Below are positions 25,665-27,214 of a DNA stretch of 64,000 nt, piece after piece. The DNA comes from Polyangiaceae bacterium (GTDB lineage Bacteria; Myxococcota_A; Polyangia; Polyangiales; Polyangiaceae). How positions within the stretch are numbered: the stretch's first letter is position 1; each line of letters opens with the position of its first letter. A program made the translations under genes and the position numbers. The notes below the pieces were generated by a model, which worked only from the letters and a program-made list of their open reading frames with translations, ran no database searches and was not told the DNA's origin. The stretch lies in NCBI GenBank assembly GCA_947475525.1, contig CANJMI010000022.1, positions 1-64,000 on the forward strand. Reading direction: 5' to 3'.

Positions 25665-26714
25665 TTATCTCGCGACGACGTCGATAGCCCCGCGCTCGGC
25701 GCCCGTGACCACGCCGATCTCGGCGGCGTCGTCGATGCCGGCCTCGCGAAGGCGTCGCACGAGGCCATCGGCGCGCTCGGCGGGGAGCACGAGCAAGAGC
25801 CCTCCCGAGGTTTGTGCGTCGGCGAGGATGAGGCGCGTCGGCTCATCGACGGCGTCGTCGAAGGTCGTGACGGCGAGCGCGTAGTCGAGATTGCGCCTCG
25901 ACCCGCCCGGGATGCAGCCGCTCACCGCAAGCGCGCGTGCGGTGGGAAGAAAAGGCACGGCGCTCGCCCGCAAGGAGACGGTGACGTTCGATGCTTCGAC
26001 GAGGTTTCGGAGATGACCGAGCAGGCCGAAACCTGTCACGTCGGTGCAGGCGTGCACTCCGAATGTTCGCCCGACTTCGCAGGCGACGTCGTTCAGTTGC
26101 GTCATGACGTGGATGGCTGCGGCGAGTGCGGCTTCGTCGACGACGCCGTTGCGAACCGCCTGTCCGATAAGTCCCGTTCCCACCGCCTTGGTCAGCACGA
26201 GCGCGTCTCCGGCGCGCGCGAAACGCTGCGACCAAACCCGATCCGGCTCGATGCTGCCGACGACCGAAAGGCCGCATTTGGGCTCGCTATCTTTCATCGT
26301 GTGGCCCCCAACGATCGGGCATCGCGCTCGGGCGCAGACGTCGTGCAACCCCGCGAGAACCTCACGCACGACATCGAGGCCGAGTACGTCGCTCGGCAGT
26401 CCGAGGAAGCTCAACGCGAGCTCGGGACGGCCGCCCATCGCGTAAACGTCGCTGAGCGCATTGCATGCGGCGATAGCGCCGAATGTTCGCGGATCGTCGA
26501 CGATTGGCGTGATGACGTCCATCGTCAACACGAGGGAGCGCGTGGCTCCGTCAGGGCGCACCACGGCCGCATCGTCGAGCAACCCTGTGCGCTCGTCGAT
26601 CCAGGGGTGCGAGGGCATCCCAAACGGTTTCAGAACCTGAACCAGGTCCTCAGCGGGGAGCTTGCGGGCTCACCCACCGCCGAGCACGAGAGTCGTGAGG
26701 CGCGGTGCGGTCAT
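25665..26714 (-). CDS. selD: selenide, water dikinase containing selenocysteine (TGA at codon 15), 349 aa
   Basis: Makes selenophosphate from selenide and ATP, the donor for selenocysteine and selenouridine. Family motifs are [54 protein letters not shown] and [11 protein letters not shown] call from the internal ATG at 26618 would lack the catalytic N-terminus. Upstream in frame, ATG 26714 follows a perfect AAGGAGG and encodes [14 protein letters not shown]. Then comes TGA at 26670-26672 and [17 protein letters not shown]. The TGA falls where other SelD proteins have Cys or Sec (GGGC/U-x-x-K-L). A hairpin 27 nt downstream fits a bacterial SECIS element. Sec incorporation is inference, but strong. 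It is divergent from ndk. Confidence 0.92.
26632..26650 (-). promoter_or_regulatory. bacterial SECIS-like hairpin in selD mRNA
   Basis: On the minus strand AGGACCTG-GTT-CAGGTTCT forms an 8-bp stem with one G-U pair and a 3-nt loop starting with G. The loop begins 27 nt after the TGA codon. Published bacterial SECIS models expect a G early in the loop and a UGA-to-loop distance of roughly 16-37 nt, and both hold here. Confidence 0.8.
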
Positions 26715-26717
26715 GTT

Positions 26718-26724
26718 CCTCCTT
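26718..26724 (-). promoter_or_regulatory. perfect Shine-Dalgarno that fixes the selD start
   Basis: AAGGAGG on the minus strand is followed by AAC and ATG at 26714. No comparable site precedes the internal ATG at 26618. This supports translation beginning upstream of the in-frame TGA. Confidence 0.8.
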
Positions 26725-26785
26725 TCATCGGTCTTCGCACCCTAGCACTTGCGCACGGAGGCTGGCTTCGGGTACATGGCGCGCC

Positions 26786-27214
26786 ATGGCACTTCAGCGC
26801 ACCCTCTCGATCGTCAAACCAGATGCAACCGAAGCCGGTAACGCCGGCGCCATCATCGCCCGCCTCCAGCAGGAAGGCTTCGCCGTCAAGGCGCTCCGCC
26901 AGCTGCACCTCACCCGCGAGCAGGCCGAAGGTTTCTACCACGTGCATGCCGCCCGCTCGTTCTTCGGCGAGCTCGTCGAGTTCATGTCGCGCGGCCCGAT
27001 TGTCGTCATGGCGCTCGAGCGCGAAGACGCGATCGCGAAATACCGCGACGTGATCGGCGCGACCGATCCGGCCAAGGCCGCCGACGGAACGATCCGCAAG
27101 CTCTACGGCAAAAACGTCGGCGAGAATGCCGTTCATGGCTCGGACGCCGTCGAGACGGCTGCCGTCGAGATCGCGTACTTCTTCGCGGGACTCGACGTTC
27201 GCCCGATGGCGTGA
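26786..27214 (+). CDS. ndk: nucleoside diphosphate kinase
   Basis: Transfers the gamma phosphate between nucleoside tri- and diphosphates via a phospho-His. The protein begins [18 protein letters not shown], with the family [25 protein letters not shown] matches the conserved middle. The active-site His is in [13 protein letters not shown] near residue 117. The length of 142 aa is standard. It is transcribed divergently from selD, with 71 bases between the start codons, and is followed by dapD at 47 bases. Confidence 0.97.

Follow-up and report, generated by a model that had tools for sequence, protein, structure and literature searches.

The window analyzed here, a stretch of 64,000 nucleotides from a Polyangiaceae genome, carries on its minus strand a selD gene that is split by a single in-frame TGA (Table 1). 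The frame opens with an ATG at 26714-26712 and closes with a TAA at 25667-25665, and the TGA at 26672-26670 is the sole stop within it. When the TGA is read through, the deduced protein scores 326.9 bits on the NCBIfam selD equivalog (TIGR00476), whose cut-off is 125, and contains both the AIRS (PF00586, 89.6 bits) and AIRS_C (PF02769, 71.2 bits) domains. Homology to Escherichia coli SelD (PDB 3u0o) extends over nearly the whole length of the protein (178 bits). In this alignment, U15 and K18 of the window SelD are matched with Cys17 and Lys20 of the E. coli enzyme, while the residues that follow the Sec position are A-R-K in the window SelD and G-C-K in E. coli. Catalysis by SelD, as known from E. 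coli, needs the Sec or Cys and the Lys. A first-pass annotation, made from the letters of the window, had described this order of Shine-Dalgarno sequence, start codon, TGA and SelD core exactly, and its claim that the TGA sits at the position of the catalytic Cys or Sec was borne out when the alignment was run. At 26714-26790, selD is divergent from a plus-strand gene that, judged by eye, likely codes for a nucleoside diphosphate kinase, and the two genes have a short upstream region in common.

Table 1. Features of the selD locus and selenocysteine-related genes elsewhere in the same genome
Feature	Location	Strand	Remarks
selD, full-length CDS, predicted selenoprotein	25665..26714	minus	349 aa, Sec15, TAA stop
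Shine-Dalgarno sequence AAAGGAGG	26718..26725	minus	3 nt ahead of the selD ATG
In-frame TGA, predicted Sec codon	26670..26672	minus	Sec15 = Cys17 of E. coli SelD; alignment and conservation
Predicted bacterial SECIS hairpin	26632..26650	minus	AGGACCUG (26650-26643), loop GUU (26642-26640), CAGGUUCU (26639-26632)
Truncated selD ORF	25665..26618	minus	standard-code ORF finder; 317 aa, lacks the active-site segment
selA	C15:65932-67278		481 bits
selB	C3:22833-24197		303 bits; ORF of 635 aa
tRNA-Sec (selC)	C3:25395-25488		71.6 bits; TCA anticodon by ARAGORN; close to selB
SelW-like (Rdx family) gene, second predicted selenoprotein	G000:C4:303066-303281 (L096:1067-1282)		PF10262, 57 bits; 71 codons

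The genome to which the window belongs is a draft of 5.15 Mb in 59 contigs and is 98.9% complete. It contains selA, selB and a gene for tRNA-Sec, all three of which the first-pass annotation had predicted to lie elsewhere in the genome. Across the order, selA was found in 56 of the 61 genomes that possess SelD, vs. 1 of the 123 that do not (Fisher P 4e-40, relatedness uncorrected). Moreover, 43 of the 44 genomes with a Sec-type SelD gave a selA match, which in a few cases was a fragment; the one exception (G053) is a draft.

A check for a bacterial SECIS element downstream of the UGA, which had likewise been proposed, led to a hairpin with an 8-bp stem, a 3-nt loop and 27 nt between the UGA and the loop, with an energy of -8.7 kcal/mol when folded alone. 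In the bacterial SECIS model, the loop has 3-9 nt, the stem 4-16 bp, the spacing is 16-37 nt and the energy is <= -7.5 kcal/mol, and one of the first two positions of the loop is a G, which as a rule precedes a G or U (PMC13188914). The selD hairpin fits every point of this model; its loop has a G first and a U second, and its size, spacing and energy are within range. Counting that of the window, 20 distinct Sec-SelD genes from the family keep the hairpin, and 98.1% of their pair cells are paired. Of its eight pairs, three show changes in both partners (A-U/G-C, A-U/G-C and C-G/U-A), the covariation score was reached by none of 500 shuffles, and slid pairings were at most 50% paired. RNAalifold chose the same stem with its topmost pair open. 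Part of the stem variation tracks amino-acid changes (Asp/Ser, Val/Ala and Val/Ile), which the pairing survives, and some stem positions are also constrained by the protein sequence. The RNA evidence for a SECIS is therefore comparative, since, with the gene of the window taken by itself, the RNA after the UGA was no stabler than its codon-shuffled versions (P 0.64 for energy and 0.15 for stem pairs). A search of Rfam with 26500-26800 gave no family match. In a TGC-type relative with 61% identity (L025, in genome G071), one of the stem pairs is disrupted, and the predicted fold lacks the hairpin. Families f3 and f5 mostly have another hairpin, with a G-U-N loop, farther downstream. A second candidate in the window, GGUUCAG-GUU-CUGAAACC (26643-26626), was spotted by eye, and was set aside in favor of the 26650-26632 stem, as preferred by both the predicted fold and the alignment.

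Because the inserted residue is not readable from sequence alone, it might be argued that a near-cognate tRNA, for instance, decodes the UGA as a standard amino acid instead of selenocysteine. However, selA, selB and a tRNA-Sec with a UCA anticodon are present in the same genome, the UGA is followed by a covarying SECIS-like hairpin, and among the relatives this codon is exchanged only with TGC (Cys). Decoding as a standard amino acid hence appears very improbable, and selenocysteine is by far the better candidate for residue 15.

Alternatively, translation could begin farther downstream, at 26618 or some other start codon, and yield a truncated protein of 317 amino acids. The ORF at 26618 is a regular standard-code ORF, and, as the first-pass annotation had foreseen, the longest that can be called here, leaving out the active site. 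This reading is slightly less probable still; all close relatives preserve the upstream segment at the protein level, 26714 is preceded by a strong Shine-Dalgarno sequence, and the short form would be devoid of the catalytic Sec/Cys and Lys. Over the ten codons that lead up to the TGA, 19 relatives showed 90 synonymous vs. 35 non-synonymous codon differences, where random single changes would be expected to give 30 to 60. As the changes are mostly synonymous, these ten codons must be translated, in agreement with a start at 26714.

Within the same order, 61 of 184 genomes have a SelD (two as fragments). Among the 57 genes in which the Sec site could be read, the codon is TGA in 44 and TGC in the other 13, a distribution that excludes a chance origin of the TGA. 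That the TGA arose in a Cys-type selD through faulty sequencing or assembly, for which the draft state of the genome and the occurrence of TGC versions in the order might speak, is refuted by this conservation, since the same TGA recurs in 44 genes from separate assemblies, including 4 of 4 same-genus genomes with identities of 69-83%; the probability of such an error is negligible. One draft (G093) has two selD genes (L071 and L058), of which one is TGA-type and the other TGC-type; a contamination of 8% may account for this. The nearest named records are metagenome-assembled genomes labelled Deltaproteobacteria, Myxococcales or Polyangiaceae bacterium, and one of these originates from Lake Baikal.

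The same genome harbors a second predicted selenoprotein gene, coding for a small SelW-like protein. This gene contains a single in-frame TGA within a CxxU motif (C-V-M-U), and is invisible to standard-code ORF calling. A hairpin, GGCCUCGA-GUC-UCGGGGCU, is located 22 nt after its UGA; in 17 such genes, this hairpin is 97.1% paired, four pairs are changed on both sides and none of 500 shuffles reached its score. A Sec-SelW gene was found in 28 of 37 family genomes with selA, vs. 1 of 71 without selA. The G-U-Y triloop common to the selD and selW hairpins may be what a single SelB would need to serve both genes.

Further selenoproteins were sought by family, with four families besides SelD being covered. 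In the window's genome, Fdh-alpha (TIGR01591) gave six matches, none with an internal stop and hence no Sec formate dehydrogenase, and AhpC-TSA (PF00578) gave 14 matches, all without stops. CMD (PF02627), the selenouridine synthase (TIGR03167) and the Se-cofactor gene yqeB (TIGR03309) had no match in this genome. It is conceivable, yet somewhat doubtful, that the whole Sec system of the genome serves only SelD and the small SelW-like protein, with no role for formate dehydrogenase, selenouridine or a Se cofactor, as far as the four families searched besides SelD can tell. If so, the SelW-like protein, not FdhA, would maintain the Sec trait in much of the family.

Several lineages with a Cys-type SelD retain selA; among them, genus g44 also retains a Sec-SelW. 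Genomes G071 and G078 each contain an Fdh-alpha-like molybdopterin oxidoreductase gene (L124, G071:C1:8159968-8160717; L125, G078:C25:82420-83157) with an in-frame TGA in NQARI-U-HSS. The R-I-U-H-S motif of the G071 gene is known from Sec formate dehydrogenases. Since G071 has a Cys-SelD and no SelW-like match was found in it, the Fdh-alpha-like gene may be what maintains selA in this genome. The hairpins that follow the UGA contain GGUCU in their loop in the Fdh-alpha-like genes of G071, G078 and G008, and have a GUC or GUU loop in the selD genes of the family. Another genome (G144) combines a Cys-SelD (L055, C246) with a TGA-containing SelW-like gene (C330:20018-20218), and no selA was found in it, which is probably due to a gap in the draft.

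With the reading frame and its homology established, the TGA conserved, the machinery genes present and the hairpin covarying, we consider it highly probable that the window selD, the predicted gene for selenophosphate synthetase (selenide, water dikinase), encodes a selenoprotein. From these data we infer the actual insertion of selenocysteine, the binding of SelB and the enzyme activity of SelD. Ribosomes would initiate at ATG 26714, the hairpin at 26650-26632 would recruit the SelB-GTP-Sec-tRNA(Sec) complex to UGA 26672-26670, and selenocysteine would be incorporated at residue 15, with translation continuing to TAA 25667. The resulting SelD would convert ATP and selenide to selenophosphate, which SelA would use for making Sec-tRNA(Sec). 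As SelD makes the selenophosphate needed for Sec and is predicted to contain Sec itself, it would be both a supplier and a consumer of selenocysteine. This reading puts right a gene that is miscalled by a standard-code ORF finder, and assigns Sec use, in the form of two predicted selenoproteins (SelD and the SelW-like protein), to the Polyangiaceae and allied families within the Myxococcota. It also offers a natural comparison between close SelD relatives with Sec or Cys, and with the hairpin intact or not.

Sec-containing SelD (SPS2) has been described in bacteria (Zhang et al. 2006, PMC1794560; Mariotti et al. 2015, PMC4561486), and SelD is the second most widespread selenoprotein family of prokaryotes (PMC13188914). 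Of prokaryotic SelD proteins, 19% carry Sec, and its position is invariant (Mariotti et al. 2015, PMC4561486); Anaeromyxobacter dehalogenans, also a myxobacterium, was on the list of Sec-SelD organisms already in 2006 (Zhang et al., PMC1794560). Because Sec-SelD is known in many bacteria, the present finding is ordinary in kind; our literature search found no paper dedicated to the selenoproteins of Polyangiaceae, or to selenocysteine use in this and allied families. The window selD resembles known Sec-SelD/SPS2 (TIGR00476) in its family, in the position of the predicted Sec within the N-terminal selenium-binding loop, in having a UGA with a downstream SECIS-like hairpin, and in the presence of selA, selB and selC in the genome. 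It differs in its motif, GGG-U-A-R-K, with an Arg where E. coli has a second Cys (Cys19), and otherwise adds only a new lineage. E. coli SelD, on the contrary, has Cys17 and no UGA, where the window SelD has a predicted Sec. The SECIS of E. coli fdhF contains a bulged U in its 5' arm, which is not seen in the selD stem; nonetheless, the selD hairpin and the SECIS elements of formate dehydrogenase genes are alike in their short stem and apical GU.
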